From a virus, in the IMG/VR virus record IMGVR_UViG_3300021090_000077, positions 1 to 32,743 of that record: DNA of 32,743 nucleotides. One strand, given 5' to 3'. This document shows, piece by piece, positions 1 to 28,076 of the stretch (the first letter of the stretch is position 1; every line of letters begins with the position of its first letter). Under the pieces are notes generated by a model. That model worked only from the letters and a program-made list of their open reading frames with translations. It was not told where the DNA came from and ran no database searches. A program made the position numbers and the translations under genes.

Positions 1-1593
1 GGCTCGTGCCTGCTCGGCTACCTGACGATCCTCGAACGTAGCCTCGTGCTGTGCCTTTGTTTGTGCTGCTGCAACCGAGTCCACGACTACCAGCAGAGGA
101 TTTGTCGGGTCCTTGGGACGAAATTCTTCACCGATGAATTCGATGAAAGAAAAAAGCTCCTCCAACGACTCAGGACGGGAGAGGAGGAAACGTTGTCCAA
201 CGTTCACCCCAAGGTCCTTGAAATACTCCTCGGAAAGTGTTTGTTCCATGTCAGCGTAGACGACTGAGCCTCCTAACTTCTGACATTCTCGTGCGATCAT
301 TCCTGCGAGCGTAGAATTATGAGTTATGGTAAAATCGCCAAGCACGATGTGGTGGTTCCCGTCCACAGTAAGCCCACAAAATTTTCCCGGCCCGACGTAT
401 TCAATGCGCACTCCACCAGCGTGTTCAAATACCATTCCATCAGGAGCTTTTTTTCTTTGGAGCAAGCAAGGAATTCTATGAAGAGCACCAGATAGATGCG
501 CTTTGAAGTACCGGCCCTTGAAGGTGCTTTCTCCACGCTTGATCGTACCGATAAATTCTTTCGGACTTCCCGCTCTTAGCCCAAGCGAACGAGCAACCCA
601 CACTACATCAGAAAGAAGCTCTTGAACCTTACTGGTTACTTGGTATTGCCGTCCTTGTGAGAGGTATCCGTCAGCACGCTTATGCACACCTTGAAGATGC
701 CCGTCAGCATCCAGATATCCTGCGAGCAATTGAAGACGTACGTTGATTGAGTTACGTTTGTAGCTATCGGGTACAAATTTCCTAGTTCCATCGAACCCTA
801 GAAGACGCATTGCAGCTAATAACGGATTTCCCTCTCCACGTTTTGACGATATCCGAACTCGCGTAGCCTTGCTTCTGCCGTCTCGATGTTCCCACGTCTT
901 CAAACGTAAACGCTTTGCGTAGCCACGGAGATACTCCAAAACTTCCGGATCGGCACTTGTGACTTCACAAGGTCCGCTTGTCGTTCCATCTCCTAACCAC
1001 ATGCCTACATAGTAAGGCTCCACAGGAATTGTTATCGCCGAAAATTCAAGGCACCCTGTTTTACAAGCATATAGGCGGGTCCTCGCCCTGTGCTTGAAAA
1101 GTTCAGAAGCGGTAACTAAAACCCTTACCCCATGTGTGGCCAGAACTAGCTGATGGTTCCCCGTTACTAAATACGGTTCACTCGTTGTTTTTTCAGGAAT
1201 AACACGAAAAAGTACCTCCTCTCCAAAGTTTTTTTCTTCTACCCGACGAGGCTTACCATCGTCCCCCATAACAAGATCCCCTACGAGAACTTCCTCAACA
1301 GCACGCACTTGCCCATCTGCCATCAAAATAAGAGTCCCTAAACCAACACATTTTCCTTCCGAAGGATTCCGCGAGTACAACTCACAGATTCTTCCACCTG
1401 CGATTCCGCCACCAAGCGCGGCATCCAGATTGAGAGCGCCTGTTGAAATCCAGTGGGGGATCTTAGTGTAGCCCCTGCCTTCCACCAGAAAAATAGCAAC
1501 CTCGGGACCGAACTTTTTCTGCGCAGCCTTACCGATGGCTTGAAGAGGATCAAGGGCGGGCGAACCCGCCCCCTCTCCTTTCTTTTCCGTCAC
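1..1593 (-). CDS. RecA/UvsX-family recombinase, intein-containing, 3' end cut by window edge
   Basis: Strand-exchange ATPase of recombination-dependent replication. The frame is open from a GTG start to the window edge, so the C-terminal part is missing. After removing the intein the protein reads STGALNLDAALGGGIAGGR, then the P-loop NPSEGK-ST, then the Walker B segment LLVVVDSVAAA, in the usual RecA order and spacing. The P-loop is unusual: the first Gly of GxxxxGK is absent and the loop is one residue longer than in RecA (SRNPSEGKS against GPESSGKT). T4 UvsX also has a divergent P-loop. The GTG overlaps the stop of the ssDNA-binding protein gene (GTGA), so the two are probably translationally coupled. 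Only this GTG gives the full N-terminal region. The UvsY-like and gp32-like genes just upstream favour a UvsX-type role. Confidence 0.9.
   Translation of the reverse strand, partial: MTEKKGEGAGSPALDPLQAIGKAAQKKFGPEVAIFLVEGRGYTKIPHWISTGALNLDAALGGGIAGGRICELYSRNPSEGKCVGLGTLILMADGQVRAVEEVLVGDLVMGDDGKPRRVEEKNFGEEVLFRVIPEKTTSEPYLVTGNHQLVLATHGVRVLVTASELFKHRARTRLYACKTGCLEFSAITIPVEPYYVGMWLGDGTTSGPCEVTSADPEVLEYLRGYAKRLRLKTWEHRDGRSKATRVRISSKRGEGNPLLAAMRLLGFDGTRKFVPDSYKRNSINVRLQLLAGYLDADGHLQGVHKRADGYLSQGRQYQVTSKVQELLSDVVWVARSLGLRAGSPKEFIGTIKRGESTFKGRYFKAHLSGALHRIPCLLQRKKAPDGMVFEHAGGVRIEYVGPGKFCGLTVDGNHHIVLGDFTITHNSTLAGMIARECQKLGGSVVYADMEQTLSEEYFKDLGVNVGQRFLLSRPESLEELFSFIEFIGEEFRPKDPTNPLLVVVDSVAAAQTKAQHEATFEDRQVAEQARA
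316..1350 (-). mobile_element. Intein in the RecA/UvsX P-loop with LAGLIDADG-type endonuclease
   Basis: This in-frame 345-residue insertion lies between the P-loop Lys and the following Ser. It begins with Cys (CVGLGTLILMADG, block A), has the block B motif TGNHQ, and ends DFTITHN followed by Ser as the +1 nucleophile. Two dodecapeptide-like motifs, WLGDGT and LLAGYLDADG, mark a LAGLIDADG homing endonuclease. All splicing residues seen (Cys1, block B His, penultimate His, terminal Asn, +1 Ser) are intact, so splicing should be active. The ends resemble those of the CobS-like gene's intein (ADG-x-[VI]-R near the N-terminus, TxDG...DF...THN at the C-terminus), so the two are probably related. 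Confidence 0.93.
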
Positions 1594-2633: not shown

Positions 2634-2703
2634 GGGAGTTTTCCTTATGGTTATGGTTGAAGTTTTGAGATTGTGGTCTGCGTTCTTTACCGTGTATTTT
2701 TTT

Positions 2704-3297: not shown

Positions 3298-3309
3298 TGA
3301 CGGGCTCCT

Positions 3310-6300
3310 TTACCATGCGAAATCCTCGACGCCACCCCACGTTTCACCAAGAGCACCACTGACCCTGAGTGGAACTCCAGATGCCTCGAAGAACGGCAAG
3401 CCGGGATGTTCTAAAATGTCTTTGACCTTCAAAGCGACTTCCTCGACTTCGACGAGCGGAACGCTAAGGACCAGAGAGTCATGGACAGTTGCTTTGATCC
3501 TAGCACGTTTTCCGGAGAAGTCAAGCCATTCCTTGAGACGAATCAGGCCCCACAGGCACAGGTCTGAAGCGTCAGACTGGATAGGACTATTGACAGCCCG
3601 GCGAAGTGCCGCCTGAAGCCGACCCTGATTAGAAAAAATGCTTGGAAGCCGAGCGTCAGGAAGCAACCGCCTCCGTCCAAACTTAGATTCCGAAAATCCG
3701 TAACGACGCGCCCGCCTTCTAGTTTTTTCGATCCATTGACTCAGGCCGGGGTACTGTTGAAGATACTGGCTGATGAATGCTGAAGCCTCGTCCTCGGTCA
3801 TTCCAGCAGTCTCAGCAACCTTCCTTGGACCCGCACCATAAAGGATGGCAAAATTGAGCGTCTTGGCCTTATGCCGCAACAGTTTATTTTCCGGACGGGT
3901 CATCTCCTCAATGGTCTTCCCGAAAAGCTCGGCACCAACCGCTGAATGAACGTCGTAGCCAGCACAAAAAGCCGCCACAAGTTTCGGGTCCTGACTGTGC
4001 ATGGTCGTGACCACATATTCCAGTGTCTTGAAGTCCACGTCGAACATTAGCGATTCCGAGTCATCCGGTAGAAAGACCCGGCGCAATTCCTTGTTCTTCG
4101 GAATCTGCTGGCAATTCCCTGCCGCGCCCGAACTGGACAGGCGCCCGGTGTTGTGTGTCACAAAGCCACCCGTCACGTGCGAATGTTCATGTGCCACAAC
4201 AAGCCCATACGTTTGCGCTGCGGGCAGTAATGAAATGGACTTAACCACGTCATTCAAAAATATCACACGCTTTTCCGCATCGGAGCGCACCGGCCAGCGT
4301 TTGCCTGAGCGAATATCCCGCACGTGTTCCCAACAAACCCCTAACTCCAGCGCGATTTTCCTATTATTTATGTGTGGATTTTCCCGTGCATAGAGCACTT
4401 GCTGTTCAGTTAGCTTAGTCACGCCCATGCGACGTTTCAACATGGACCCATGCGCTACGGCGTCTTTCTTGTTATCGAAATCCGTACCCCACCTTAGATT
4501 ACCTACTGTATTGTCCCATGAAAAACCGTTGAGGTGACGAACCTCCGGCTGGTTTTCCTGATTGGGCACAAAGGCTTGTGCTACCAGTCGATGCACCGTA
4601 AAATCTCTTAAATCCACACCACGTACTTGCGATCCATTACGCCGCAACGTTACCTTCAAATGCCCCCAACGCCCTTTAGAACGTAGAGACACGAGTCGAT
4701 AAACCTTGTCATTGCGAATCCTGCCCCACGAGCTAACGCTGAAATCCTCAAAGTCCGTCACCTTTTTCCACCGTTCCGGATTAGAATGAACTTTAACTAC
4801 TGTACCGGGTCGCAGTTCACGTGCTTCCACCCAACCCTGCGGCGTCAAATAAGGATGATTTCCGGTTGTTTGTAGGCACAAACCACCCACACTACGAACT
4901 TCATAGATGGGTTTTATGCTATTATCAACAAGAACCTCTACCTCAGCGCTTTTTCCAGTGTGTGTGATAACCTGATCTCCAGACCGTACTTGCTCAACCG
5001 CAAGATACCCGCGGTTCGTCAACACTAGTTCACCCGCGGCTAAACATATTGCCCCACCCCAATCTCCAGCGTCGTCATCAAAGTAACTCGTCATGTTGTA
5101 GTGGAAATGCAACCTGCTGTCCAGAGCGACTCCTTCCTTCCACCGCTCATAGAAGCCCGTATAGAGTTTTTCCAGCGCACGGGATTCAAGGATCAGGTCG
5201 ATAACCGGGTGCGTACCCTTGAGATCGTTGAGAGCCAGACGTGCCGTGGACGCTGCACCCTTCGGAGTCTGCCGGGTCGGTGTCAGCCCGAGAATTTCGT
5301 AGAGCATAACACGCAGATGCGCAGGGGATGTGAGCATGAAATCGACTTTAGCTCTAGCCTTGAAAATCTCAAGCGGCCCTTCCAGAAGAGTCCGGGTCTT
5401 CTGTCGCACTTCCACAAGCTTGGTCTGCAACAGCGCTCCATACTCTTCGAGGTACTTCAGGTCGATTTTCCAGCCGTCTATTTCGACTGATGTGAGAGCG
5501 TTGGATGCCCGAGCAAGAAAACCCGACAGGAAGGTCAACCGGGTGTCCTTGGCGAGAATATCGCAAGCCGCTACTGCGAGCCGGTACGTCACCTCAGCGT
5601 CAAGGCAGCCGTACCAGAAAAGCGTATCGAGCGGACACAAGAAAGAGTCCCCCTCGTCATCTTTCATGGCTTTGTCCGCCTGCCGCTTTGTGTCTTCGTA
5701 ACCTCCGTAGGGAGAAACCTCCCATGCGATTTTCTTGAGAGACCGCGCAGGCAGGCCACGCCGCAAATGGTCGAACACCATTCCATCGAACTGAATTGTT
5801 GGGAAAATCCCAAGCGAATGAGCAATTGCCACCTGATCGAATTTCGCGTTGAACCCAACGAGAGCGTGGCCCTCTCTAGGGTAGGACCTGAAAAACCCTC
5901 CAAGTATTTCGGCCATCCCATCAAGCCAGTTCGACGGCAGCGTGATTTCAGAGTGTGTGATAGGTACAAAATACGCTGTGTCTTCAGCACCGCAGAACTG
6001 AATCGAGGTTAAAAACCTAGCATCCAGAGTAGGTAAATGCCATGGGTCCAATCTACGTGTTTCTGTATCGAACGCTACAATCGTACGATCAAACAGATCC
6101 GTCACCATGCTCTTGAGCCCTTGAACGTCCGTCACGAGCCTGTAGCTGCCAAGATGGGTCGTCTTGTGATGCTCCATTGAAAACGGAGCGTAGCCCGGTG
6201 TCGCGTAATTTTTGGCCAGTGTCAGGTCGAATACCAGAGCGTCTCGTTCAGAGGGAGAAAGAATAGCCTGAAAAAGATGAGCCGTAGAAATCAACTTGAC

Positions 6301-6762
6301 TTTACGAATCGGCGAAACTTCTACGTCGATGACTTGACTCCTGACACTGCCCGCCTTGAGGAACTGAGCCAGCACTGCGGAAGTTGCGGTCTTCCCGAAC
6401 GACACGACAATGCAAACGGACGGGTGGTCCTCAAGCTCTTCGATAAGCCACGGACGACACGCAAGGACCTCCTTCTTGGCGATCTTGTAGTCATGCGTGG
6501 CCGCGCACCGCGTACCGTACGTGTACGCTACCTGCGACGTGTCTATTCCGACTTCGGAAAATACCTCACGTAACAGAACGAATTTCTCTTCCGGTGTGCT
6601 GAATGGCAAACCTCCGATATCGTTCTCATCGTCGGACGGGTTGTCACCGACAAACAGAATTCTAGCGTCCGGTGCTCCGGTGTACCGAACAGGCGTTACC
6701 GCACGATTAAGCCGCCTCTCGTGAAGCGGGCACTTCGTGCAGGCGTCAAGTCCTGCGTTCAT
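3310..6762 (-). CDS. UDG - 3'-5' exonuclease - family A DNA polymerase fusion, with HNH intein
   Basis: Replicative polymerase with three domains. Residues 1-185 resemble a family-4 uracil-DNA glycosylase: four putative Fe-S cysteines (Cys8, Cys11, Cys86, Cys102), the active-site-like loop GDNPSDDEND-x-GG-x-PF and a downstream AHLF. The exonuclease follows, with D232/E234 (FDTET), N305/D309 (NAKFD) and the YxxxD motif Y384/D388. The polymerase has TGR at 872-874, motif A D910/E915, motif B R963, K967, F971, Y975, and motif C H1094-D1095-S1096, where bacterial PolA has HDE. An intein occupies residues 573-871, leaving about 851 residues after splicing. A UDG-like N-terminal domain on a phage PolA is known in SPO1. 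The start overlaps the stop of the small basic gene (ATGA), so expression is probably coupled. Confidence 0.95.
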   Translation of the reverse strand: MNAGLDACTKCPLHERRLNRAVTPVRYTGAPDARILFVGDNPSDDENDIGGLPFSTPEEKFVLLREVFSEVGIDTSQVAYTYGTRCAATHDYKIAKKEVLACRPWLIEELEDHPSVCIVVSFGKTATSAVLAQFLKAGSVRSQVIDVEVSPIRKVKLISTAHLFQAILSPSERDALVFDLTLAKNYATPGYAPFSMEHHKTTHLGSYRLVTDVQGLKSMVTDLFDRTIVAFDTETRRLDPWHLPTLDARFLTSIQFCGAEDTAYFVPITHSEITLPSNWLDGMAEILGGFFRSYPREGHALVGFNAKFDQVAIAHSLGIFPTIQFDGMVFDHLRRGLPARSLKKIAWEVSPYGGYEDTKRQADKAMKDDEGDSFLCPLDTLFWYGCLDAEVTYRLAVAACDILAKDTRLTFLSGFLARASNALTSVEIDGWKIDLKYLEEYGALLQTKLVEVRQKTRTLLEGPLEIFKARAKVDFMLTSPAHLRVMLYEILGLTPTRQTPKGAASTARLALNDLKGTHPVIDLILESRALEKLYTGFYERWKEGVALDSRLHFHYNMTSYFDDDAGDWGGAICLAAGELVLTNRGYLAVEQVRSGDQVITHTGKSAEVEVLVDNSIKPIYEVRSVGGLCLQTTGNHPYLTPQGWVEARELRPGTVVKVHSNPERWKKVTDFEDFSVSSWGRIRNDKVYRLVSLRSKGRWGHLKVTLRRNGSQVRGVDLRDFTVHRLVAQAFVPNQENQPEVRHLNGFSWDNTVGNLRWGTDFDNKKDAVAHGSMLKRRMGVTKLTEQQVLYARENPHINNRKIALELGVCWEHVRDIRSGKRWPVRSDAEKRVIFLNDVVKSISLLPAAQTYGLVVAHEHSHVTGGFVTHNTGRLSSSGAAGNCQQIPKNKELRRVFLPDDSESLMFDVDFKTLEYVVTTMHSQDPKLVAAFCAGYDVHSAVGAELFGKTIEEMTRPENKLLRHKAKTLNFAILYGAGPRKVAETAGMTEDEASAFISQYLQQYPGLSQWIEKTRRRARRYGFSESKFGRRRLLPDARLPSIFSNQGRLQAALRRAVNSPIQSDASDLCLWGLIRLKEWLDFSGKRARIKATVHDSLVLSVPLVEVEEVALKVKDILEHPGLPFFEASGVPLRVSGALGETWGGVEDFAW
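4150..5046 (-). mobile_element. Intein in DNA polymerase with NUMOD4/HNH-type homing endonuclease
   Basis: A 299-residue insertion immediately before the conserved TGR of the polymerase domain. Splicing blocks: Cys1 in CLAAGELVLTNRG, block B TTGNHPYLT, and C-terminal GGFVTHN with Thr at +1. The central part is not LAGLIDADG. It begins with a NUMOD4-like segment (W-K-K-V-x-DFEDFSVSSWGRIRN), continues with an HNH_3-like core (VHRLVAQAF, RHLNG, DNTVGNLRWGT) and ends in an IENR1/HTH-like DNA-binding segment (LTEQQVLYAREN...IALELGV). This architecture is typical of free-standing and intron HNH homing nucleases. It indicates an origin different from the other four inteins here. Confidence 0.92.
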
Positions 6763-6965: not shown

Positions 6966-9071
6966 TCAGGCAGCGCTTTTTGCGATATCAGACAGGAACA
7001 GTTGGAGCAGAACATCCGGAAGATGACTGAACTCAAGCAGTGTCCGGCTGTTCTTGAAGAATTTACTGACACAGTTGTCGTTGCCGAGACCAATCCCGTA
7101 AACCGAGACACCCATTTTCTCAAGCTGCCGAATGACCGCACCGAGGTGGTTTGCCAGACACTGCATATTGGCACTGTTACTGTGCGGCCAGCCATCCTCG
7201 AACACGAAAAGCATCTTACGCTTCTCTGGTCGGGTCAGCAAGCGCGCTGCGCACGTAGCGATGGACTCCCCATCGACGTTGTTTCTCTGATACAAAGCCT
7301 CTTGATTGGCCAATACAGGCAGGGCATCCCGGAATGGCATGGAGAACGACTTGAAAATTGGAATTACCAGCGCTTCGTTTCGCGTGTAACCATACTCGTG
7401 AGGCTCCGGAAGTGTACGTCCTGTCGTAAACCCAATGATCTCAAATGGTATGTGCAAACGGTCGAGAAGCAGACCCAACACACCGACAGCCTCCAGCGTC
7501 AGACCGATTTTGTTTGCGCTCCCCATTGAGCCAGAGCAGTCCACGATAAGCTGGACGGCAATATTCTTGCGCGAATGTGCTTCAAAACGACGCAGAAACA
7601 GCGAGTCCAATTCCGGTAGCGGGCCAGCAAGAGAGGTGATTTTACGAGGGTTGATCCGAGAACCTTCACTGTTAGGCAAATATCGTCTGGCGAATTGCCC
7701 TACCAGATGCCGCGAAATCGCCCCCAACGAAAGTGACTGCACTTTTTTCGTATATTCGTTCACCACGGCGGCATTATCCGACGCAGGATGCTGCTCTATG
7801 GTGTCCTTATCCGTCGAGGAATGCCAAAGATGCAGCGGGTCGTCTGAGAAATCATTCGGCGGCGGGAGAACCAGACGGTCCTGCTTGAAAAGCATGAATA
7901 TCTGCTTGCCCCGCGCACACCCACCAACCGCGGTTTTTTCGAGAGCCTTTTCGAGAGCTTTCAATTCCTTGGGACTCAGTTCCAATCCCTCTTCCTCCTG
8001 CTCACCCTGCTTACCCTTCTCGCCCTGCTCTTCGCTCTCCTTTTGCTTATCGTCTTTTCCCCCGCTCGACTGTTCACTCTCTTCCTCGTCCCCCTCTTCC
8101 TCCTCGTCACTTTCCTCCTCTTTCGAACGCGCAGGAGAAAAAGCAGAGTGGAAAGGACAAGGAAGACGCTCCTTCTCACCACCTTGCTCTTCCGCACTTT
8201 TCTCGGTCTTGGTTTTGGTTTTCTTGCTCTTGTTTTTTTCGCTCTTCTGCTCATTTTTTTCTATGAGAACGATGGTTGTTCCACCACTCACTTTGCCGTC
8301 ACAGTCTTTCGGCTCAGGAGCAGATTTGAGCAATTCGAGAATGTACTTGAAACAGGCCAGCATGAGAGGCTTACCATATTCGAAAACCCGGATAGAGGAC
8401 TCCAGTGACACGAGCTTATCGTGGTCCACAAGGTCGAGCATTTTCAGGATTTCAGGGTCAAGCTCCGAGTCTGATGGCAAGCTTTCGTCAACCATCCACG
8501 GCATCCCTTTGCGCGCCAGCAGGAGACGCATTATGAGGTTAAAAAAGTCAACCTCCGCATCGGCGTTCTCCCCGGAGAAAACTTCTCTATAGTCAGCCGC
8601 ACTGTCATACAGTCTTCGCAAATAGGTTTCCGCCCCCGGAAAGCGCTCCACCCACAGATGCTCGATTCTGATATCCTCCAAAGCGTTCTCCACGTTGGAA
8701 ACTACGGTGGACGCGACCCCATGCATTTCCTTCGGGGCAGAACAAGCATCTAGAATGCTCTTAGCGCACTGACTGACGAGAAAACTGCGAGGCGTGTTCT
8801 TGTTGTGACTGTTGACGACGTGTGAAGCTTCGTGGTCGAGCAGACCGTTCAAAATGTCAAACCACAGGTCTTTTTTCTCGGCAGGCAACTTGTGCCGCTT
8901 CTGGTACGCCTTCGCCATTGCCTCAAGCTGCGCGTCAGAAGCCTCGGGCAGGTAGATCGTCGTGCTGTCCGAGTGGGGTATAACATTACGAGCGAATTTC
9001 ACGCTCACCCCTGTCCGGGCCGTCAGGACCCTAGCCAGCTTCACCAGATACGGTTCGTATGTTGACTGCAC
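6966..9071 (-). CDS. CobT-like protein: HExxH domain, acidic linker, VWA domain
   Basis: 701 residues. The N-terminal third contains HEASH (residues 80-84), a match to the HExxH zinc-metalloprotease signature, in a helix context LLDHEASHVV. Residues of roughly 280-385 are a highly charged, Glu/Lys-rich, low-complexity linker. A VWA domain follows with an intact MIDAS start LIVDCSGSMGSANK near residue 510. This layout matches the CobT subunit of aerobic cobaltochelatase and phage relatives that pair with MoxR/CobS AAA+ ATPases. The CobS-like partner is encoded four genes upstream in the same direction. A real role in cobalamin synthesis is unlikely in a phage; an AAA+/VWA remodelling or chelatase-like function on an unknown target is more plausible. 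GTG start with AAGGGGAG site. Confidence 0.85.
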   Translation of the reverse strand: MQSTYEPYLVKLARVLTARTGVSVKFARNVIPHSDSTTIYLPEASDAQLEAMAKAYQKRHKLPAEKKDLWFDILNGLLDHEASHVVNSHNKNTPRSFLVSQCAKSILDACSAPKEMHGVASTVVSNVENALEDIRIEHLWVERFPGAETYLRRLYDSAADYREVFSGENADAEVDFFNLIMRLLLARKGMPWMVDESLPSDSELDPEILKMLDLVDHDKLVSLESSIRVFEYGKPLMLACFKYILELLKSAPEPKDCDGKVSGGTTIVLIEKNEQKSEKNKSKKTKTKTEKSAEEQGGEKERLPCPFHSAFSPARSKEEESDEEEEGDEEESEQSSGGKDDKQKESEEQGEKGKQGEQEEEGLELSPKELKALEKALEKTAVGGCARGKQIFMLFKQDRLVLPPPNDFSDDPLHLWHSSTDKDTIEQHPASDNAAVVNEYTKKVQSLSLGAISRHLVGQFARRYLPNSEGSRINPRKITSLAGPLPELDSLFLRRFEAHSRKNIAVQLIVDCSGSMGSANKIGLTLEAVGVLGLLLDRLHIPFEIIGFTTGRTLPEPHEYGYTRNEALVIPIFKSFSMPFRDALPVLANQEALYQRNNVDGESIATCAARLLTRPEKRKMLFVFEDGWPHSNSANMQCLANHLGAVIRQLEKMGVSVYGIGLGNDNCVSKFFKNSRTLLEFSHLPDVLLQLFLSDIAKSAA

Positions 9072-9828: not shown

Positions 9829-11913
9829 TCAGACAACCTTGAGTCGAACCATCAGGCTTTCCACTACGTTCTTTTCCGTTGGCGGCAGGCTCGGCAGGAG
9901 AGTCAGCCCCAACGCGCGTTTGACGGACCCTGTGAAAATAATGGCCTCTACAGTGTGGTGGATCATCCTCGTCGAGAACGGAACTGTCAAGGACGTGGTT
10001 GCGTCATAGGCCGCGCGATATTCCTTGACGAAGTTGAGGAGGTTTTCCACCAACAGACGCCCCGCGTCCTTCTCGAAGAGTTTGCCGAACTTTTTCTTAA
10101 GAATCTCCCGTTCCTTGTCGAGCGAGCAGTATGCCACCTGCACCCGAAACGCGAACCGTGACAAGGACGCGAAATTCTGGATTTGCGTTCCGGCGTAGAT
10201 CCCCCGCGGGTCCGGATTGATGCCGTCTGTGTTTCCAGTCGCCACACAGCGCCAATCCTTGTTCGGACGGATTAGCTCCTCCGTCTCGGGGATGTGGAGG
10301 ATCGGGTCTTCCGACTCCAGAATCGGGTTGATGAGGATGGTTGCCGAAGGTGTGCCTACGTCGTACTCATCCGCGAGATAAGTGGCGGGACGCAAAATCG
10401 AGAGTGCCAATGTTCCGCGGCGGAAGCGAAACTGGAGTCCGGTTCCTGACGGATTTGCGCTCGCCATGAAAGCACCGATCATTTCCGCTCTCGCAGAATG
10501 TTCATCGAAGTTCTGCCGGATGACCTCTTTTCCACGACGAGCGCAGAATTGAATCACCGATTGACTGTTGTGAGTCACCATGAAGTCATCAAGGAAATAG
10601 CGCCCATCACCGTCAAGCGTGAATCCGTAGAACTTCTCAATGCCCAACTTCTCCACTGTGAATCCCGTCCTGAGCACGGACTTCTGTTGTGCTCGTCTCG
10701 GAGCGCGCTTCCGTGAAACACGACAGGGAACAACAGAGCAGTCACCAGAAATCCCCACCCGGAAATAAGTTCCCCCACCTCCGGTCTGACATCTTTTTTC
10801 GCAGGGCTTCACGTAAGCCGCCAGACCAACGCTACGAGAAATGAAAGCCACATCATTCGCCAGACGTTCTGACTTTGAGATAAAGTCAAATCCGCCTCCT
10901 TGCATGTGGCCATCTGTATCCATCAACCCGGCAAGAATCTGAAGTCTGACACTGCGAGGGGCGATCTTGAATTCCTGCGGAATGAATTTCTCTCCGGCAC
11001 GAGCGCCCCGTAGCCCCAACTTTTTCAACATAACCCCGAGAGGATTTCCAACGTGGGGGCCAATTCCCTTACGAATCGGACGAGACTTCGTTCGACTAAT
11101 GGAGTACGTAATAGCCTTCCCGGCAACGCGCTGCTCCCTTAATGCGAGACCTAAGCGGCGGAGTGCAAAACGGACGTGCTTCACAATCTCGGAATCACCG
11201 GAGGTAAGGGTATAACATCCCAACCCCAACCCACCGTCTCCAAGAAGAACCCCGAGAAGATATGGAGAAAGTGCCCGCCTCTCGCGGAGCTTATCAGGAG
11301 GTCGCGTAAAATCCACCGCTTCTCGAAACAGCTTGAACATTCTCTTTTTCGTCGAACTCCACGTCAGCCACATCTTCACCGGAACATCCACAGTGTTTCC
11401 ACTGCCGGTCCTCACGAGCGTCAACACGTGTTCATCGTTAACAACGAATGGATTTCCCTTTACAGGGACAATCCGGTACATCTGCCCTTCCCCTACGTTC
11501 ACTGATTTCACAGTACGAGCCTTCGATACCGCAGCGTATTGTGTGGGGTTTTCCGTTTTGGAATCCGGAGAAGCAAGACGATCACCGGGAAGAATGTCCT
11601 CGACTTTTCTGATCGTTCCGTCCGCTAGAAGGATGCCCTGTCCCTTTCGATGACATTTCCCGCTCCCGGTCTGCCCCCACAGGTAGACATGCCGCCCGAG
11701 CGACTCACCGAGAATGAGCGCCTCCAGCACGCCCACGTCGAAGACGAACGTAGGGTCAACTCTCGGTACGAACGTTTTGTAGGGGTCATCGTCGCTGTGA
11801 CGATAGGTCCAGACAGTCAAGTCCATCAGGGATTTTGAAAGCTTGACCTCGGGGAAGACTTCGGAAACCTTTCGGGAGGTTTTCTCGATGGCCTGCTGAC
11901 TCGTACTGTCCAT
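9829..11913 (-). CDS. CobS/MoxR-like AAA+ ATPase with P-loop intein
   Basis: MoxR-clade AAA+ ATPase resembling the CobS subunit of cobaltochelatase. After intein removal it is about 331 residues, normal for CobS. Walker A is GQTGSGK-S, Walker B YLADEYD, and sensor 1 VATGNTDG follows, with the arginine-rich AAA+ lid after it. The start chosen is the ATG preceded by TTGGAGG. The reading frame extends 51 bases further upstream, but that part includes the promoter -35 and -10, so it cannot be in the transcript. ATP-driven CobS rings work with VWA proteins of the CobT type; one is encoded downstream and another VWA-like protein lies near 20.5 kb. The cellular target is unknown. Confidence 0.9.
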   Translation of the reverse strand: MDSTSQQAIEKTSRKVSEVFPEVKLSKSLMDLTVWTYRHSDDDPYKTFVPRVDPTFVFDVGVLEALILGESLGRHVYLWGQTGSGKCHRKGQGILLADGTIRKVEDILPGDRLASPDSKTENPTQYAAVSKARTVKSVNVGEGQMYRIVPVKGNPFVVNDEHVLTLVRTGSGNTVDVPVKMWLTWSSTKKRMFKLFREAVDFTRPPDKLRERRALSPYLLGVLLGDGGLGLGCYTLTSGDSEIVKHVRFALRRLGLALREQRVAGKAITYSISRTKSRPIRKGIGPHVGNPLGVMLKKLGLRGARAGEKFIPQEFKIAPRSVRLQILAGLMDTDGHMQGGGFDFISKSERLANDVAFISRSVGLAAYVKPCEKRCQTGGGGTYFRVGISGDCSVVPCRVSRKRAPRRAQQKSVLRTGFTVEKLGIEKFYGFTLDGDGRYFLDDFMVTHNSQSVIQFCARRGKEVIRQNFDEHSARAEMIGAFMASANPSGTGLQFRFRRGTLALSILRPATYLADEYDVGTPSATILINPILESEDPILHIPETEELIRPNKDWRCVATGNTDGINPDPRGIYAGTQIQNFASLSRFAFRVQVAYCSLDKEREILKKKFGKLFEKDAGRLLVENLLNFVKEYRAAYDATTSLTVPFSTRMIHHTVEAIIFTGSVKRALGLTLLPSLPPTEKNVVESLMVRLKVV
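10567..11655 (-). mobile_element. Intein in the CobS-like P-loop with LAGLIDADG-type endonuclease
   Basis: A 363-residue insertion between Lys and Ser of GQTGSGK|S, the same junction used in the RecA/UvsX gene. Cys1 (CHRKGQGILLADGTIRKVED), a block B-like segment with VVNDEHVLTL, and the C-terminus DDFMVTHN followed by Ser are present. The two endonuclease motifs are LLGVLLGDGG and ILAGLMDTDG. Block B lacks the usual TxxH Thr (NDEH instead), the only mild departure among the splicing motifs. The N- and C-terminal blocks resemble those of the RecA/UvsX intein. Confidence 0.92.
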
Positions 11914-11935
11914 GGACTTCCTCCAAGTGTCCTCC

Positions 11936-11964
11936 ATATTACACCTGTAACAACCCGAAGTCAA
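11936..11964 (-). promoter_or_regulatory. Promoter of the CobS-like gene with inverted-repeat operator
   Basis: TTGACT, a 17-base spacer and TAATAT on the minus strand form a near-consensus sigma-70-type promoter. The spacer and -10 contain the block GTTACAGGTGTAAT, found again in the promoter at 22881-22909. Inside it, TTACA and TGTAA form a perfect inverted repeat around GG, so a regulator could bind on top of the -10 region. The expected transcript start is about 16 bases before the chosen ATG and leaves the GGAGG ribosome site in the leader. Confidence 0.8.
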
Positions 11965-18644: not shown

Positions 18645-18947
18645 GTGATCGTGCGCTACGGTCGTGGCGCGCTTCCCGAAGGCTTCTTACCAGTTTACAG
18701 TGTCGGCGACGAGGAGGAGGCCAAAGCCCTGCTCATCATGTCCTGTGGCCGAAATCTTGCCGGTGAATTCGTGGCTTCTGAGCTTGCCAGAGAGCAGACG
18801 CTCGATAACCTGCAAGCCTTCTCCGACAAACTCCACGAACGCCACGCCATGCTCAAAAAAGCCGGGCGCTGCCGATGCGTTACGTCTCCAGCGGAGGGGC
18901 GTACACTCGCACGTTCTCGCGGGAAGGGCCGTAGCTCCAAAGCCTGA
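18645..18947 (+). CDS. Conserved hypothetical protein, convergent overlap with purZ-like gene
   Basis: 100 residues from a GTG. The first 75 residues look like a real conserved phage protein (ALPEGFLPVYSVGDEEEAKAL, then ACG-like SCGRNLAGEFVASELA and LQAFSDKLHERH). The last 25 residues are basic and low in complexity; they are read from DNA that also encodes the C-terminus of the PurA/PurZ-like enzyme on the other strand (68 bases of overlap). The 3' extension may therefore be recent. No ribosome site stands out. Function unknown. Confidence 0.65.
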   Translation: MIVRYGRGALPEGFLPVYSVGDEEEAKALLIMSCGRNLAGEFVASELAREQTLDNLQAFSDKLHERHAMLKKAGRCRCVTSPAEGRTLARSRGKGRSSKA

Positions 18948-20043
18948 TAGGGAGCCCAGTTTCTTCAATCAACGCCGAGCACACGCGCAAGTAGTGTGAA
19001 ACATCACCAACTTGATCTAAACAGGTTACTGCCAGCGAAGGCGCAACACACAGCCCTACCTCTTTAGCTCTCCGAAGATCACGTGCAATAGCCTGCCCGA
19101 TGAGCTTCACATCCAAATGCCCGAACCGAAGTGTACCCTGAAACTCATTCTGTGCATTCGTCTCGTCCGGATAAGAAAGGGTCAAGTCCTCTGTTGGAAA
19201 TGGACCAGCCCCGTGCCGCGTCATGTACGCTCGCGTGACATAAATAACTTCAAGCTCACTGATGCCGTTCCGCCGCGCAAGCGTGATAACGTTCGTCAGG
19301 CCAGTCCGGCTCCGCGTAACGTGAGGAAAAAACTCGTGCTCTTCGTCCAGCAAAAGCCCCTGCGCACCCTCGAAAATCACGTCACGACCTTTCGGTAGTC
19401 GGTCGGCAAACGTGCTGGCCGCGAGGAATTCCCCCATTGCTTTTTCGAAGTCATCCCGTATTCCTGACGAGACCATCCGGGAAACAAATTCGATAGACGG
19501 TTGGTACGAAAATACGTTCATGCGACCCATCGAATAATCAGACGTAACCCGCAGGAAATCACGAAGCCAGATAGGTGAAGCCGCTTTGCAAATATGCCCC
19601 GGCAAGATGGTGCTGCGTGTCACCGTCTCATTGATTCCGTACCCACAAGAGCCATGACGCGCTTCGCCACGTGCCCGTTCCAATTCTTGATTCACCAGCA
19701 TGTCATACGGCGTTGTAAAAACCGCGGAAGGATCAACGATCAAGGCTGGCCGCGGAACGTTCCCGAGCATATCGAGTGCGTTTTGCTCTTTCCGCCATAG
19801 CAGAGGATTCACGAGAAAAGTGTGAGCCAAGTAAGTAGCGGCACCCGCGAAGGTGCCGCTACCCACGTGAGAGAAAGCGTGACGACGCTCCGGCCTGACA
19901 ACCGTGTGGCCAGCCTGAGCGCCACCGTTGAACCGAACGACAATGGCATCTGGATTTTTCGCGGCAAGGTAATCGACGACGAGACCCTTCCCCTCGTCGC
20001 CGAACCCGGCCCCTATAACAGCCGTGACTTTCAACGATGGCAT
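18880..20043 (-). CDS. purZ: PurA/PurZ-family adenylosuccinate synthetase (phage type)
   Basis: Joins aspartate to IMP (PurA) or dGMP (PurZ, the committed step to 2-aminoadenine DNA). It has 387 residues against about 430 in bacterial PurA. Visible sites: P-loop-like GDEGKG with Asp16 and Lys19, GGAQAGH with His46, GSCGYG at 131-136 where PurA has GTTGRG, EGAQG at 225-229, HVTRSRTGL at 241-249, a short FQGTLRFGHLD in place of the PurA TTGRRRR loop, and TCLD at 340-343 (PurA TKLD) that keeps the guanine-contacting Asp. The altered substrate loops and short length fit phage PurZ or PurZ0. The retained catalytic Asp, replaced in characterised PurZ as I recall, and the GTP-type Asp fit PurZ0 or PurA. 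It is the last gene of its operon. Confidence 0.8.
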   Translation of the reverse strand: MPSLKVTAVIGAGFGDEGKGLVVDYLAAKNPDAIVVRFNGGAQAGHTVVRPERRHAFSHVGSGTFAGAATYLAHTFLVNPLLWRKEQNALDMLGNVPRPALIVDPSAVFTTPYDMLVNQELERARGEARHGSCGYGINETVTRSTILPGHICKAASPIWLRDFLRVTSDYSMGRMNVFSYQPSIEFVSRMVSSGIRDDFEKAMGEFLAASTFADRLPKGRDVIFEGAQGLLLDEEHEFFPHVTRSRTGLTNVITLARRNGISELEVIYVTRAYMTRHGAGPFPTEDLTLSYPDETNAQNEFQGTLRFGHLDVKLIGQAIARDLRRAKEVGLCVAPSLAVTCLDQVGDVSHYLRVCSALIEETGLPIRLWSYGPSRENVRVYAPPLET

Positions 20044-20044: not shown

Positions 20045-20920
20045 TTACGACGCGCTGACGAGTTGAGCCGTCACCGCTCGGACGGCCAGAGCGGAATCCC
20101 CGGTCCAGCCGCTGACCACATCAGCAGGCTGAGCGCCTTCCACCAGTTGAATGCAGGCGACGATGCCTTCCGCGAGTCGTTCGATGTCCGGCACGAAGAT
20201 GGCCCGCTCGTTCAGAAGCGCCTTCCAGTTTTTCTCGACCTGCTGATCGGGAACCGGCTTGACGATGAGGTGGAACACGTGCCAGTCTTTCTGCACATGG
20301 TCAAGCAGCACCCGCGTGTCCATGTCGGACTCTCCCTCGGCATTGAGGAAGGTTTTGAGTTGCGACCTCGTGGTGAGCAGGTGCGGAGACTCGTCACCGA
20401 TGGTGAAAATGTATCCCTTCCTGTGACGCTTCCGAATCGCATCGCATTTCGTCCGGTAGGCCGCGAAAAACCACGCGAGCGCGTAGGACTCGCCACCATT
20501 TCCACCACCAGCCCCTTCGAGGTACATCTTGGCGATCTGTTCGACCAATGGATCGGACGACGCCTCGAATTGCGTGACCTGCAACGGTGCGCTGTCGCAG
20601 TTGGCGTCACCAAGAGCCACGCACATGATCTGCGGGTCAGGAACCGGTTTTCGAGCGTAAAGCTCCTTCATGATCGTGCCGAGGCCACCCTTGATGATCT
20701 GCTCGGCCAGAATCCCCATCGAGCCCGTCTCGTCTGCCCCGAGGATGATTGGGGTTGCTTCGGGGTTAGCATTCGAATCCACCGCCTCCCGGAACTTGAT
20801 CTTGGCAGGGTCCAGATCCGGATGCATTCCGGACTGCGAAAAAATCTGATCCCTGCTTTTGGTACTCGTTGCCCGGACGTGCCGGTCCCAATCCACATCG
20901 GAAAATCGCGCGTTACCCAT
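20045..20920 (-). CDS. VWA-domain-like protein
   Basis: 291 residues. A modified MIDAS start, ILGADETGSMG (Asp63, Thr65, Ser67; D-x-T-x-S instead of D-x-S-x-S), opens a VWA-like Rossmann fold. Downstream hallmarks of the phage VWA family that I recognise are VPDPQIMCVALGDANCDSAPLQVTQFEAS and LEGAGGGNGGESYALAWFFAA, the latter carrying the expected Thr/Asp-type cluster. VWA proteins of this kind usually serve a MoxR/CobS ATPase as adaptor. Here the CobS-like gene is 8 kb away but uses the same promoter element. The ATG overlaps the 53-aa membrane gene by eight bases and the stop lies one base from purZ. Confidence 0.85.
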   Translation of the reverse strand: MGNARFSDVDWDRHVRATSTKSRDQIFSQSGMHPDLDPAKIKFREAVDSNANPEATPIILGADETGSMGILAEQIIKGGLGTIMKELYARKPVPDPQIMCVALGDANCDSAPLQVTQFEASSDPLVEQIAKMYLEGAGGGNGGESYALAWFFAAYRTKCDAIRKRHRKGYIFTIGDESPHLLTTRSQLKTFLNAEGESDMDTRVLLDHVQKDWHVFHLIVKPVPDQQVEKNWKALLNERAIFVPDIERLAEGIVACIQLVEGAQPADVVSGWTGDSALAVRAVTAQLVSAS

Positions 20921-21446: not shown

Positions 21447-21455
21447 AGATCCTCC

Positions 21456-21569: not shown

Positions 21570-21574
21570 TGGCT

Positions 21575-22869: not shown

Positions 22870-22880
22870 ATCAGACCATA

Positions 22881-22909: not shown

Positions 22910-22922
22910 GGGAAAAAACGGG

Positions 22923-22951: not shown

Positions 22952-22957
22952 GTTCTC

Positions 22958-23542
22958 ATGCCCGCTTCGGCAGCCGACGTGGAAGCATTTCTGGACGAGG
23001 AACTATCGGTTCCGCTCGACGAACAAACGAACCTCCAGAATTTCCGCCTCACTGTTCAAGCCAAGATTTACGACCTGCTCGACCGGTGGACCTCTGAAGC
23101 CCGAGCCTCTACCGCATCCATGAGTGAGGGGCGCAATGCCCTGCTCGACGCGACCGTTTACGGGAACTTCCGATCTGTAGCTTACGCCAACCACGACCTC
23201 AACACGACCGTAAAAGACGCAGTGGAGAGCCTCCTACGCATCACCGGCCAGTTCGACACTCCGGCTCAAGTCGAAGCAGGATTGGCCGAACGCGAAGGTA
23301 CAGCACCTCCCCGACACAAGGCGCTGACCGATCTGGACAAGCTGGATGGTCCCGCGCGTGATCGTGTAAGACAAATGGTGGCCACAATCCTGTCCGCGGC
23401 GGTCTCTCTGACTCCCCCGATTCAGGCCGTCAATGTGACTACACAGATCAAGCGCAAGGAGAAACTTCGGAAACTCCTAGAGAAGGGACCCCTCCGTGTC
23501 CGTAGGCCACAAAAGAAAGCCACCGATAGCGCCGGGAATTGA
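22958..23542 (+). CDS. Possible small terminase subunit
   Basis: 194 residues from the leaderless ATG; the frame extends 60 bases further upstream to a GTG, but that stretch is the promoter. The protein is helical and hydrophilic with an acidic N-terminus (ADVEAFLDEELSVPLDE) and a basic C-terminus (IKRKEKLRKLLEKGPLRVRRPQKK). It lies directly upstream of the large terminase and overlaps it by 47 bases. Position and composition suit a DNA-recognition small terminase, but I see no helix-turn-helix and recognise no family. Confidence 0.5.
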   Translation: MPASAADVEAFLDEELSVPLDEQTNLQNFRLTVQAKIYDLLDRWTSEARASTASMSEGRNALLDATVYGNFRSVAYANHDLNTTVKDAVESLLRITGQFDTPAQVEAGLAEREGTAPPRHKALTDLDKLDGPARDRVRQMVATILSAAVSLTPPIQAVNVTTQIKRKEKLRKLLEKGPLRVRRPQKKATDSAGN

Positions 23543-26500
23543 CGCTACCTTCGAAACCGTCCCGGCAGCCAAGGGGCTGATAGCTCTCATCGACGAACAT
23601 GTACTGGTCCTGCCGCCAGAGGAGCGAGAACTAGTCAGGACGATCATCAAAGTATGGTCCGAGTCGGGCGATGATGAAATACTGGCCGAAGCCCGCTCCC
23701 GTGATTACATCGGCGGGCACATGCCCGTGGACCCACACACCTTTCTCACAGACCCTTATTTCCTCGGGGATTTTGCCAAGGCGATTTACCCAAAATGGAG
23801 AGCCGACCTAGAATACGTCCTCGACCCTAAAAACCAGATAGAACAGTGGGCACTCGTAGGCGCTCAAGGCACAGGAAAGTGCCGAAAAAAATCCGCCTCT
23901 ATCACTCTATGGGGTGGACAAGTTGTTACAGCCGAGGCCCTTGTAGGAAAGTCCTTCGCTCTCCCCACCCTTCTGAATGGGAAGGTCAGAAAAGCCCGCG
24001 CTTGGGCGGAATGGAACCGCATCGAACCTACTTTCACTCTCGAAACTCATACAGGAAAACTAGCTGAAGCCAACAGCGACCATCCCTTTTGGGTAACACC
24101 ACGTCTCGACGATGTTTCAGAATCCACACGTCTAGGCCGTCGAATGAAACTCGGCCCCGCCGGTTGGCAGAAATTAAAGAATATCTCCCCCGGCGATCTC
24201 GTGGCTATACCTGATAGCCTTCCTGTCTTTGGTACAAAGCCTCTTCCAGATCACGAAGTCAAGCTCCTAGCTTACCTCATCGGAGACGGAAGCCTTTCCA
24301 CATCAAACATCCGTTTCACGCAGACTTCAGGACCACAACTTTTCGAATTTCTAGCCTGCGTGAAAAAAGCCGACGCCGTAGCGATCAACTATGCCCCTAT
24401 GCAGTACCGTATCGTGGGACAAGTACGTACTATAAGACACCATTATCCGGGATCAAACCCAATTCTTAATCTCGTTCGAGAGCATGGTCTCGAAGGAAAA
24501 CTCTCCAAAGAAAAAAGAATTCCATCCACCATCTTCGTGCTTCCGAAACAACAACTCGCCCTTTTCCTTTCCCGTCTTTATTCGACTGATGGGTGGGCAC
24601 ACTACAGGCCAAAACAAAACGGACGAGGCAGCGAAATAGGTTACTGTACAGCATCTCACGGCCTTGCTATGGACCTCATGCGACTTCTTCTTCGTTTTGG
24701 TCTTCATCCTGTACTGACTTACAGACGAGTTTCTTCATCTAAAGATGGCCTAAAAAAATTCAACGCGTGGACCTTGACCCTTCGCGCCCACGATCAGATC
24801 CGGCGATTCGCGTCCGAAATTGGCATTTTCGGAAAGGAAAAGGCCCTCACCAAAATCGTTGAACACTCGAACCGCTGGCTTAATTTTCCTAGAAAACGAA
24901 AGTTGCTCAAGGGCACGAAAAAGTCAATAGCTCGTCCTTGTTACATTCCATGGATGTACCGTAATGCCCTACCGGGAACGCGATGGGAATACGTTCAGGC
25001 AGTCACACCCGGCCCCACCGACATGACTGTAGCAATCGAAACAGAAAGCCATACTTTCCTAACCGAATTCTACGAACACAACACGACTGTAGCGCTCGCC
25101 GCTCAAACCTACAAGCTCTACCGCCTTTCTTGCTTGAAGGACCCACAGCGGTATTACTCACTCGACCCAACTGCGGAAATCTACTTCGGCATGTTTACGC
25201 TCAATAAGGAGAAAGCGAACGACGTTCTCTACAACAAATTTCACAAGATCCTCGAACAATCGAATTACTTCAAAGAACGTTTTCCGTTCCGAAAGCGTAG
25301 AAAAGGCCCCATGGTTTCCGGACGCCTGCAAGAGCAACTTCAAGAATCCGAGTGGGTCTACGAACTGCTCTTCCCACGGAATCTGCACGTTATTTCCGGA
25401 TCGCAGACCGCTCACGCCCTTTCGGTTGACCTTTTCTCCTGCCTGCTCGACGAGATGAACTGGAGACGAAAAAAATCCCTACGCCCTGAAGAAGATGTCA
25501 ATTCCGCCGTCACTCTCTACGAACAGGTTCTGAACCGTATCACAGGCCGCTTCATGAGCCACGGCATCAAACCGGGACTGTTGTGCGTCGTCTCGTCCAA
25601 ACGAGCCACAACAGATTTCACGGATGGACTTGTGGCACGGATGCGAAAAGAACCCGAGCATTGTTTCGTCTCAGACTACCCGTTGTGGGAAGTTAAGCCC
25701 GGAAAATACTCCACCGAAAAATTTCATGTCTTTGTCGGAGGAAGCTACGGTGAGTCACACATCATCAAGGACGAAGACCTCCACAAATACGACCTCAAGG
25801 CAAAAAACATTGTTTCACCACCTGTCGATTTCCTGCCTGACTTCAAACGAAGCATCAACTCAGCGATCCGGGACATCGGCGGAATTTCGACCGTACCCTA
25901 TTCTCTTCTATTCGAGAACGAGGAGATTATCCTCCAGAACATCGACTCGACCCGGAAATCGCCTTTCCGCATCGACGAAATTCCTCTCGGACTCAAGACC
26001 GCGCAGTCATTGGATTTCTGGTTTGACGCGACTGCTGCGACCTTCCATGACGGCTACACCAGAAAGCCCCGCTGGCACTCCAATGCTCCGAGATTCATCC
26101 ACGTAGACCTGTCCAAGAACAGGAACGCGACCGGCCTTTCGATGCTGTGTCCTCATGGCTCGAAAAAAATCATCTCCATGACCCCTGACAGAAAACAAGC
26201 AGTCGCGTTTGTGCCGCAAATATGGGTGGACTTCACCATACGCATTATAGCTCCCGAGGGCGACGAAATTGACTACGACAAGATACGGCAGTTCATCGTC
26301 TACCTCCGCCGGGTCGGTTACCCCATTCAGGCCGTCAGCTTCGACCAATTTCAATGCCTCGCAAAAGGAACCCTAATAAATACAGCGAGAGGACTCATCC
26401 CTATCGAAGAAGTGCAAATCGGTGATGTAGTCGCTTCCCGTAGTGGCCCACGCAGGGTTCAACGAACATGGATATTTGGGAAGAAAGACACCCTAAAAAT

Positions 26501-28076
26501 TATTACACGAGACGGCGAAATCATCGAAGGCACCGGAAAACACCGTATCGAGGTATCCAAAAAACACTTCCAACGTAATAGCGGACCTGTAGAACACGAG
26601 TGGGAATGGAAAAGATTAGACGAACTAAAACCGAACGACATTGTTCGTATGGTTGAGGACCCAATTCCGTTTGAAGATCGTCCCGAAAGCTCGCTTTCCG
26701 TAGAAATTGAACCCTACATTCACGGAAATCAGCGGTTGAATCGAGATGCCGTCAAGGAGATTCTTCAACAACGCGCAAACGGGGCTAACCTAGAAACAAT
26801 CGCGTGGAATTTCTCCATAGCGCAAGCCACAGTATCAGCTATCACACGAAAGAAAATACATGTTGCAGAAAAAAAGCCGTTAGATGTCTGGAAAGCCCCC
26901 TCAACGCTTACCCCAAAACTCGCTGAGTGGATGGGTCTTATTTGGGGAGACGGACATATCGGAGAACGCCACGTCAATCTGACAGTAACAAAAGAAGAAG
27001 CTGAAGACGCCCTACACGTTCACCACGAACTATTCGGATTTTTTCCGGCTTTCCACCAACGTTCTGAAAAAACTTTCGGCGAGATTAGACTTAATTCCAT
27101 GCGTCTGGTCAGGTGGTTAAACGCAAACACACTCGTTAAACCATTTATTCCGGACTCCGTTCTCCGAGGAAGTCGTGCCGCCCAAGCAGCGTTTCTACGT
27201 GGGCTCTTTGCAGCAGACGGTTCTGTAAGTAAAGACATCGGTCAAGTCACGCTTTCAACAAAACACGCCAAGCTCGCAAAACAGGTCATGGTTTTACTAC
27301 GAACAGAATTCGGAATTGCTAGTCACCTCACCCTTATTCGAGGAACCGGAGGAGGGTGTGTTCCATACTCAAAAGGCCGACATCAGTACGTAGTTCAAAT
27401 TCGTGGAAGTCGAAAAACATTTCTAGAACAAATCGGATTCAGTTACCAAAGGAAAGCCGCTCTTCTTGCTATGCATGTTAACAGACCGGGACGCCGTATT
27501 TTTTCCCGTGTTGCTAAAATAAAACCATCTCAAGCACAGGTGTACGATCTTCAGGTAGAAGATGACCCCTCCTATACAGCTAACGGTTTCATCTCACATA
27601 ATAGCGTTGATTCGATGCAGCTTCTCACCAAGACCGGCTTCACGACCAACTACACCTCGGTTGATCGCTCCGACTTGCCCTACGTCAATTTACGCAACGC
27701 CTGCTCCCAAAAGCGACTCAATATCTACCGTTACGAACCGTTGATCCACGAGCTTCGTAACCTCATTCACGACCTCGAACGGAGCAAGGTAGACCACCCG
27801 GATACAGATGTCTCTGGTGGACCGGGCTCGAAAGACGTGAGTGACAGCCTGTGCGGCGCCTATACGACTTGCGCGCAGGCTGTTGCCGCACTAAAGCCGA
27901 CCACGGCAATTCCACATCCTGTTCACATCGGGCAACACGAGACCGACACCGAACCGAGCGAAAAGGTGACGGCAATGTTCAAGGCTCTCGGCATCATCCC
28001 GACCGTTACAGGCTCTCCGGCGGACGCGTTTGCAACTGCGGACGTGGATCTGAACCCACGGAAACTACCGGAATAG
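23496..28076 (+). CDS. Terminase large subunit with two inteins
   Basis: DNA-packaging ATPase/nuclease, 1526 codons, about 709 residues after removal of two inteins. The ATPase has Walker A GAQGTGK-T and Walker B LFSCLLDE followed by MNW. The RNase H-like nuclease has acidic residues in FIHVDLSKN, SFDQFQ-S and DVSDSLCGA, the order expected for large terminases. One intein splits the P-loop, the other splits the nuclease next to its second acidic residue, so both catalytic sites are unformed until splicing. GTG start overlapping the upstream gene; weak AAGGGA site. Followed at 27 bases by the portal gene. Confidence 0.95.
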   Translation: MSVGHKRKPPIAPGIDATFETVPAAKGLIALIDEHVLVLPPEERELVRTIIKVWSESGDDEILAEARSRDYIGGHMPVDPHTFLTDPYFLGDFAKAIYPKWRADLEYVLDPKNQIEQWALVGAQGTGKCRKKSASITLWGGQVVTAEALVGKSFALPTLLNGKVRKARAWAEWNRIEPTFTLETHTGKLAEANSDHPFWVTPRLDDVSESTRLGRRMKLGPAGWQKLKNISPGDLVAIPDSLPVFGTKPLPDHEVKLLAYLIGDGSLSTSNIRFTQTSGPQLFEFLACVKKADAVAINYAPMQYRIVGQVRTIRHHYPGSNPILNLVREHGLEGKLSKEKRIPSTIFVLPKQQLALFLSRLYSTDGWAHYRPKQNGRGSEIGYCTASHGLAMDLMRLLLRFGLHPVLTYRRVSSSKDGLKKFNAWTLTLRAHDQIRRFASEIGIFGKEKALTKIVEHSNRWLNFPRKRKLLKGTKKSIARPCYIPWMYRNALPGTRWEYVQAVTPGPTDMTVAIETESHTFLTEFYEHNTTVALAAQTYKLYRLSCLKDPQRYYSLDPTAEIYFGMFTLNKEKANDVLYNKFHKILEQSNYFKERFPFRKRRKGPMVSGRLQEQLQESEWVYELLFPRNLHVISGSQTAHALSVDLFSCLLDEMNWRRKKSLRPEEDVNSAVTLYEQVLNRITGRFMSHGIKPGLLCVVSSKRATTDFTDGLVARMRKEPEHCFVSDYPLWEVKPGKYSTEKFHVFVGGSYGESHIIKDEDLHKYDLKAKNIVSPPVDFLPDFKRSINSAIRDIGGISTVPYSLLFENEEIILQNIDSTRKSPFRIDEIPLGLKTAQSLDFWFDATAATFHDGYTRKPRWHSNAPRFIHVDLSKNRNATGLSMLCPHGSKKIISMTPDRKQAVAFVPQIWVDFTIRIIAPEGDEIDYDKIRQFIVYLRRVGYPIQAVSFDQFQCLAKGTLINTARGLIPIEEVQIGDVVASRSGPRRVQRTWIFGKKDTLKIITRDGEIIEGTGKHRIEVSKKHFQRNSGPVEHEWEWKRLDELKPNDIVRMVEDPIPFEDRPESSLSVEIEPYIHGNQRLNRDAVKEILQQRANGANLETIAWNFSIAQATVSAITRKKIHVAEKKPLDVWKAPSTLTPKLAEWMGLIWGDGHIGERHVNLTVTKEEAEDALHVHHELFGFFPAFHQRSEKTFGEIRLNSMRLVRWLNANTLVKPFIPDSVLRGSRAAQAAFLRGLFAADGSVSKDIGQVTLSTKHAKLAKQVMVLLRTEFGIASHLTLIRGTGGGCVPYSKGRHQYVVQIRGSRKTFLEQIGFSYQRKAALLAMHVNRPGRRIFSRVAKIKPSQAQVYDLQVEDDPSYTANGFISHNSVDSMQLLTKTGFTTNYTSVDRSDLPYVNLRNACSQKRLNIYRYEPLIHELRNLIHDLERSKVDHPDTDVSGGPGSKDVSDSLCGAYTTCAQAVAALKPTTAIPHPVHIGQHETDTEPSEKVTAMFKALGIIPTVTGSPADAFATADVDLNPRKLPE
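23880..25082 (+). mobile_element. Terminase intein 1 (P-loop site), LAGLIDADG type
   Basis: A 401-residue insertion between Lys and Thr of the Walker A motif. Begins CRKKSASITLWGG, has a block B-like SDHPFWVT, and ends TFLTEFYEHN before Thr (+1). Endonuclease motifs LLAYLIGDGSL and FLSRLYSTDG are present; the second is divergent, so the nuclease could be weak. The N-terminal block differs from that of the RecA/UvsX and CobS-like inteins despite the identical insertion point. Confidence 0.92.
26355..27602 (+). mobile_element. Terminase intein 2 (nuclease-domain site), LAGLIDADG plus HTH
   Basis: A 416-residue insertion after SFDQFQ. Starts CLAKGTLINTARG, block B GTGKHRIEV, ends YTANGFISHN before Ser (+1). 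Endonuclease motifs WMGLIWGDGHI and FLRGLFAADG are intact. Between splicing block B and the first of these lies a helix-turn-helix-like segment (LNRDAVKEILQQRANG, then LETIAWNFSIAQATVSAI), an extra DNA-binding module. It differs from intein 1 throughout, so the two arrived independently. Confidence 0.93.

Follow-up and report, generated by a model that had tools for sequence, protein, structure and literature searches.

The five inteins carried by a genome fragment of an uncultured tailed phage are very probably mobile elements, and their high load most likely reflects frequent exchange rather than a conserved regulatory design. The fragment, a linear virus record of 32,743 bases, was analysed over its entire length and is referred to below as the window. 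In the mechanism that we propose, at least four intein lineages would have invaded conserved motifs of essential genes for replication, recombination and packaging. Each intein would be translated within its host protein and, as the intact splicing motifs suggest, would then excise itself and join the flanks. Its LAGLIDADG or HNH nuclease, presumably active, would cut the empty allele of a relative that reaches the same cell by co-infection, and repair of the cut allele would copy the intein across, a homing process to which the distribution of the elements points. The inteins would persist since imprecise loss at such positions is expected to be lethal to the phage, and the high load would reflect frequent DNA exchange within a phage group that has several intein-rich members.

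Inteins and host genes of the window

An earlier, sequence-only reading had proposed five inteins in four genes between positions 316 and 27602. This span proved to be exact, and all five elements are in-frame insertions with matches to Hint/intein-splicing domains and to LAGLIDADG or HNH domains in Pfam and NCBIfam (Table 1; a caret marks the insertion point). For RecA1, the matching families are PF05203 (6.7e-15), PF14528 and PF05204. Four inteins possess a LAGLIDADG nuclease; that of Pol1 is of the NUMOD4/HNH type and has I-HmuI (1u3e), an HNH homing endonuclease, as its closest relative of solved structure. Reading frames are open throughout the 1,824 intein codons, with neither a stop nor a frameshift.

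Table 1. Host genes, inteins and vacant intein sites of the window.
Feature	Position	Strand	Insertion site or supporting match
RecA/UvsX-like recombinase gene	1..1593	-	PF00154 4.2e-17; PHROG UvsX-like recombinase
RecA1 intein, 345 aa, Hint + LAGLIDADG	316..1350	-	Walker A NPSEGK^STLAG of RecA/UvsX
DNA polymerase gene: UDG-like domain + 3'-5' exonuclease + family A polymerase	3310..6762	-	Pfam/NCBIfam domains
Pol1 intein, 299 aa, Hint + NUMOD4/HNH (I-HmuI-like)	4150..5046	-	GGAI^TGRLSS of DNA polymerase A
CobS-like AAA+ ATPase gene	9829..11964	-	TIGR01650 3e-25; PHROG 249
CobS1 intein, 363 aa, Hint + LAGLIDADG	10567..11655	-	Walker A GSGK^SQSV of CobS-like AAA+ ATPase
Large terminase (TerL) gene, 709-aa extein + two inteins	23496..28076	+	PHROGs
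TerL1 intein, 401 aa, Hint + LAGLIDADG	23880..25082	+	Walker A GTGK^TTVA of large terminase
TerL2 intein, 416 aa, Hint + LAGLIDADG	26355..27602	+	TerL nuclease domain, SFDQFQ^SVDS
Empty portal site	28750..28751	+	occupied by an intein in G030 (APWNF^THGRV)
Empty MuF-type head gene site	30931..30932	+	occupied by an intein in G030 (NPAEH^CQSC)

The splicing motifs had been described as intact, which holds for most but not all of the residues concerned. All five inteins have Cys1 as N-terminal nucleophile, a C-terminal His-Asn followed by a +1 Ser or Thr, and the His of block B (TxxH); in CobS1 (NDEH) and TerL1 (NSDH), however, Asn stands in the place of the block B Thr. Inspection of the sequences further revealed that RecA1, Pol1 and TerL1 retain the block F His, whereas CobS1 and TerL2 have another residue at this position; TerL1 also lacks one residue close to its C-terminal end. 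Judged by their motifs, all five inteins should splice, and the loss of the block F His in CobS1 and TerL2 or the missing residue in TerL1 could render splicing slow in at least one of them. The acidic residues of the LAGLIDADG motifs likewise appear intact upon inspection (GDG together with DADG, DTDG, STDG or AADG). When TerL1 was modelled with AF2, which gave moderate confidence (mean pLDDT 61), the best match to the model was the TliVMA intein (7qsu). GC3 ranges from 0.39 to 0.53 in the inteins compared to 0.53 to 0.69 in the exteins, each intein lying below its own extein. The N-terminal intein model TIGR01445 matched none of the five window inteins and PF14890, applied at the genome level, matched only one; thus, generic models undercount inteins of this kind.

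The start of the record cuts the recA gene, so that the C-terminal end of the product is lost and the extein is represented by its first 186 residues. In the polymerase, the UDG-like domain is N-terminal. Scans of the window for Rfam elements and for tRNAs found none. The gene of the CobS-like (AAA+) protein is paired with a CobT-like (VWA) gene (6966-9071, minus strand) within the block of replication genes. Besides this pair no cobalamin genes were seen in the window, and the two products are possibly a remodelling pair of the MoxR/VWA type. An adenylosuccinate synthetase-like gene (18880-20043, minus strand) occurs alongside the family A polymerase. As its product is nearer to PurA (1e-34) than to PurZ (3e-12; both NCBIfam) and retains the Asp of GDEGKG, a 2-aminoadenine genome is not indicated by the sequence, though it is conceivable. 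The adjacent VWA-like gene (20045-20920, minus strand), which has no match in NCBIfam, is 82% identical to its counterpart in the related phage G030 described below, compared to 56% for a neighbouring gene; either recent exchange or strong constraint may account for this.

Empty and occupied alleles in related phages

The exteins are continuous once the insertions are removed, as the sequence-only reading had required of true inteins, and this is evident from intein-free homologues in two phages. In Vibrio phage LV6, the RecA, polymerase and both TerL sites are uninterrupted at the matching junctions. The second phage, G030 (IMGVR_UViG_3300032163_000002, 141 kb), supplies by far the stronger evidence; it is a syntenic IMG/VR relative which was found via the TerL2 intein and then compared to the window with regard to gene order and exteins. 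Its replication genes are arranged in matching order, and the exteins of the four genes are 57-60% identical to those of the window. Gap-free alignments run across the RecA (SEGK/TS), polymerase (SGAI/TGRLSSSG), CobS (GTGK/TA) and TerL P-loop (GSGK/ST) junctions, here marked by slashes, and these are natural empty alleles. The nuclease-domain site of the G030 terminase is occupied by an intein 55% identical to TerL2. Occupancy of the two phages is therefore complementary: the RecA, polymerase, CobS and TerL P-loop sites are occupied in the window only, the portal and MuF sites in G030 only, and the TerL2 site in both.

TerL2-type inteins were found at DxxQ^S in three other terminases (L327 in G030, L328 in G031 and L329 in G032), whose exteins are 57%, 34% and ~22% identical, respectively, to that of the window terminase. 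Homing is expected to leave inteins that, at a given allele, are more similar to each other than the exteins around them. Such an excess was observed between TerL2 and its G031 counterpart (intein 50.7%, extein 34.4% identity) and between Pol1 and the same-site intein of a further relative, G003 (42.3% and 32.1%). Because of this excess, the sequences of both inteins fit lateral movement between alleles in a homing pattern; the comparison covers these two of the five inteins. For TerL2 and G030 (intein 55%, extein 57%), vertical inheritance fits as well as homing.

The complementary occupancy of the window and G030 also suggests a competitive role for the nucleases. Each of the two might be able to cleave the other at several positions, and with the acidic LAGLIDADG residues in place, the nucleases might act as weapons against essential genes of co-infecting phages whose sites are empty, to the advantage of the carrier over and above the spread of the intein. 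Plain selfish homing, however, predicts the same pattern, and we consider such a weapon rather unlikely. An intein arms race, in which complementary nuclease sets would make the load an asset in competition, favoured by selection on the phage and not on the intein alone, is similarly doubtful.

The sequence-only reading had gone further in a different direction and suggested that inactive precursors might couple the timing of the phage cycle to splicing conditions; under such a scheme, splicing would await a trigger from the host. Since three inteins split a Walker A motif and one a nuclease motif, the precursors are indeed probably inactive. Conditional splicing has also been described for inteins of archaeal RadA and mycobacterial DnaB, and an untested proposal of this kind exists for the pair of inteins in the terminase of cyanophage Mic1 (PMC7156551). 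A sensor intein would be kept across the orthologues of its host protein, but four of the five sites are empty in the close syntenic relative G030, and thus the timing switch is not supported. In addition, the four LV6 sites compared are all empty, two of the window inteins appear to be laterally mobile, and five mycobacteriophage TerL inteins that were assayed spliced quickly (PMC5050341). A switch of this kind would, moreover, need parallel tuning of unrelated intein lineages. Taken together, we regard conditional splicing as very unlikely to explain these inteins.

Preference for the P-loop

The RecA, CobS-like and first TerL inteins had been placed directly after the Lys of the P-loop, and all three placements are exact. 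The P-loop had also been named as a known intein hotspot, in agreement with earlier descriptions (PMC5050341; PMC5874633). CobS1 and RecA1 are members of one very large phage intein family. The tree of this family included 119 non-redundant homologues from IMG/VR, and no fewer than 117 of them interrupt Walker A, with K^S/T or G^S/TGK as the junction, in many different ATPases. As the search patterns lay within the intein, this preference is not an artefact of the search. RecA-like genes with P-loop inteins also occur at L303 and L308. TerL1 represents a second family, the examined relatives of which all reside at GRRIGK^T of other terminases. Thus, the presence of three P-loop inteins in a single phage apparently is a consequence of the site preference of their families. 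The CobS1/RecA1 family itself splits by site (L142-L221, L263-L326), members that begin with CHxxG being mostly at G^S/TGK and those that begin with CLxxG mostly at GK^S/T; CobS1 has a CH start yet occupies a GK^S site, equivalent to a shift by three codons.

Alternatively, the P-loop inteins might have arisen by copying within the genome, from one P-loop gene to the others. RecA1 and CobS1 belong to one family, share the GK^S type of site and are, at 31% identity, the most similar pair among the five. However, CobS1 groups with inteins of other phages that are mostly found at G^SGK, and TerL1 falls into another family. A sister relationship of RecA1 and CobS1 was rejected in a careful tree of 44 rows (AU p = 0.019), a result to be read with the caveat that the branch of RecA1 is long and its placement accordingly weak. 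A quick tree of 123 rows did not reject the relationship (p = 0.84), but it was unconverged and missed its optimum, and the 44-row tree was preferred. The latter disfavours duplication of a single P-loop intein within the genome, which we judge to be highly improbable. Repeated independent capture, as proposed by the initial reading, is accordingly upheld, with at least four intein lineages present and RecA1 and CobS1 not being sisters in the preferred tree. Insertions that are degenerate or inactive, or a false assembly of several genomes into one, might be considered given that the window is a metagenomic fragment and some motif residues are non-canonical, but with the open frames, the same gene order in G030 and same-site orthologues on independent contigs, this is extremely improbable.

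Intein load of the window and its relatives

The load had been regarded as unusual, which applies to its density but does not make it unprecedented. The window has 15 inteins per 100 kb. In 28 IMG/VR records, which were picked by their terminase extein and blind to intein content, we counted at least 17 inteins in 1.43 Mb, or ~1.2 per 100 kb; a single-sequence TerL query of IMG/VR had returned no matches, and an alignment query was needed. Inteins in the relatives were counted with local models of the two termini, with Pfam and by reading the sequences, and the counts are lower bounds. Under an even rate, the probability of at least five inteins in 32.7 kb is ~5e-5, although the actual counts are clearly uneven, with about six in 35 kb of G003, three in 6.2 kb of G009 and none in most others. 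As the window itself was picked from a scan, its density is to be taken as a description and not as a test. Intein-rich relatives are G003, G009, G031 and G032. For mycobacteriophages, 229 inteins have been reported across 841 genomes (PMC5050341), and mycobacteriophage ET08 has at least five in a genome of 155 kb (PMC3029335). Among the papers covered, ET08 is the only phage with at least five inteins, and higher published loads are possible.

Several relatives display further arrangements of inteins. The family A polymerase gene of G003 (L064:8153-12958) harbours three, located at ^TGR, at ILN^CDYS in motif A and at FGL^CYG. The same phage has inteins in its portal and ThyX genes and a probable, truncated one in a MuF-type head gene (L064:15657-17075), which follows HPPFHPH, seems to begin with Pro instead of Cys and is cut by the end of the contig. 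A terminase with three inteins is encoded by G032 (L398:6134-10720, also L329), the sites being G^SGK in Walker A and, in the nuclease domain, FDQFQ^S and DHPKRG^SKD. In G009 (L018, 6.2 kb), terminase inteins are positioned directly before ^TGAIGTGKS and at VIPG^SQS, and a portal intein adjoins; the central part of the VIPG^SQS intein consists of extended low-complexity sequence in which no nuclease was recognised. The polymerase gene of G031 (L397:3241-7905) contains two inteins; in one of them, Glu-Asp seems to take the place of the terminal His-Asn ahead of Ser (GLLTED^S). Another relative, G001 (L010:10172-10951), possesses a terminase P-loop intein of 260 aa without LAGLIDADG. Its splicing ends are similar to those of TerL2 (58% over the last 31 residues), which may point to a transfer from one site to another within a single gene.

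The window and its relatives constitute a natural data set on intein invasion, comprising syntenic phages of about 57% identity with complementary sites, two terminase domains that are hit, and single genes with three inteins. Rates of homing, loss and co-infection thereby become directly testable in this phage group. Our comparison also implies that, where inteins cluster in essential proteins, empty alleles should be compared before the inteins are called regulatory switches.

Comparison with known systems

The position between the Lys and the Ser/Thr of Walker A is shared by the mycobacteriophage TerL1-a intein and other phage P-loop inteins (PMC5050341), and by the K^S intein in the terminase of phiCbK, a phage that also carries an RNR intein (PMC3556154). 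In contrast to these known P-loop inteins, three P-loop genes of one phage are occupied in the window. With respect to the number of inteins in different genes, namely five, the window is comparable to ET08, which however accommodates them in 155 kb instead of 32.7 kb (PMC3029335); the gp79 intein of ET08 is a distant relative of TerL1.

The terminase of cyanophage Mic1 (PMC7156551) similarly has one intein in the ATPase domain and one in the nuclease domain. The sites differ, being LLTG^T (C-motif) and DHL^C (nuclease motif III) in Mic1 and GK^T and DQFQ^S in the window. The DxxQ^S site, now seen in four phages, lies four residues past D549, which is invariant in our alignment A1 and would be the second metal-binding Asp of the TerL nuclease domain. 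Neither this site nor a CobS-like ATPase as intein host was described in the literature searched, the coverage of which was partial, and no CobS-like host gene was among the 142 homologous loci examined; both the site and the host may thus be new.

The polymerase intein of Bacillus phage Eldridge (L006) occupies the same ^T(G/S)RL site of PolA as Pol1, but its nuclease is of the LAGLIDADG type in place of the I-HmuI-like HNH nuclease of Pol1. Among solved structures, the best relatives are TliVMA (7qsu) for TerL1 and PI-SceI (1dfa) for the CobS1 family, both of which reside in cellular V-ATPases and have low sequence identity to the inteins of the window.
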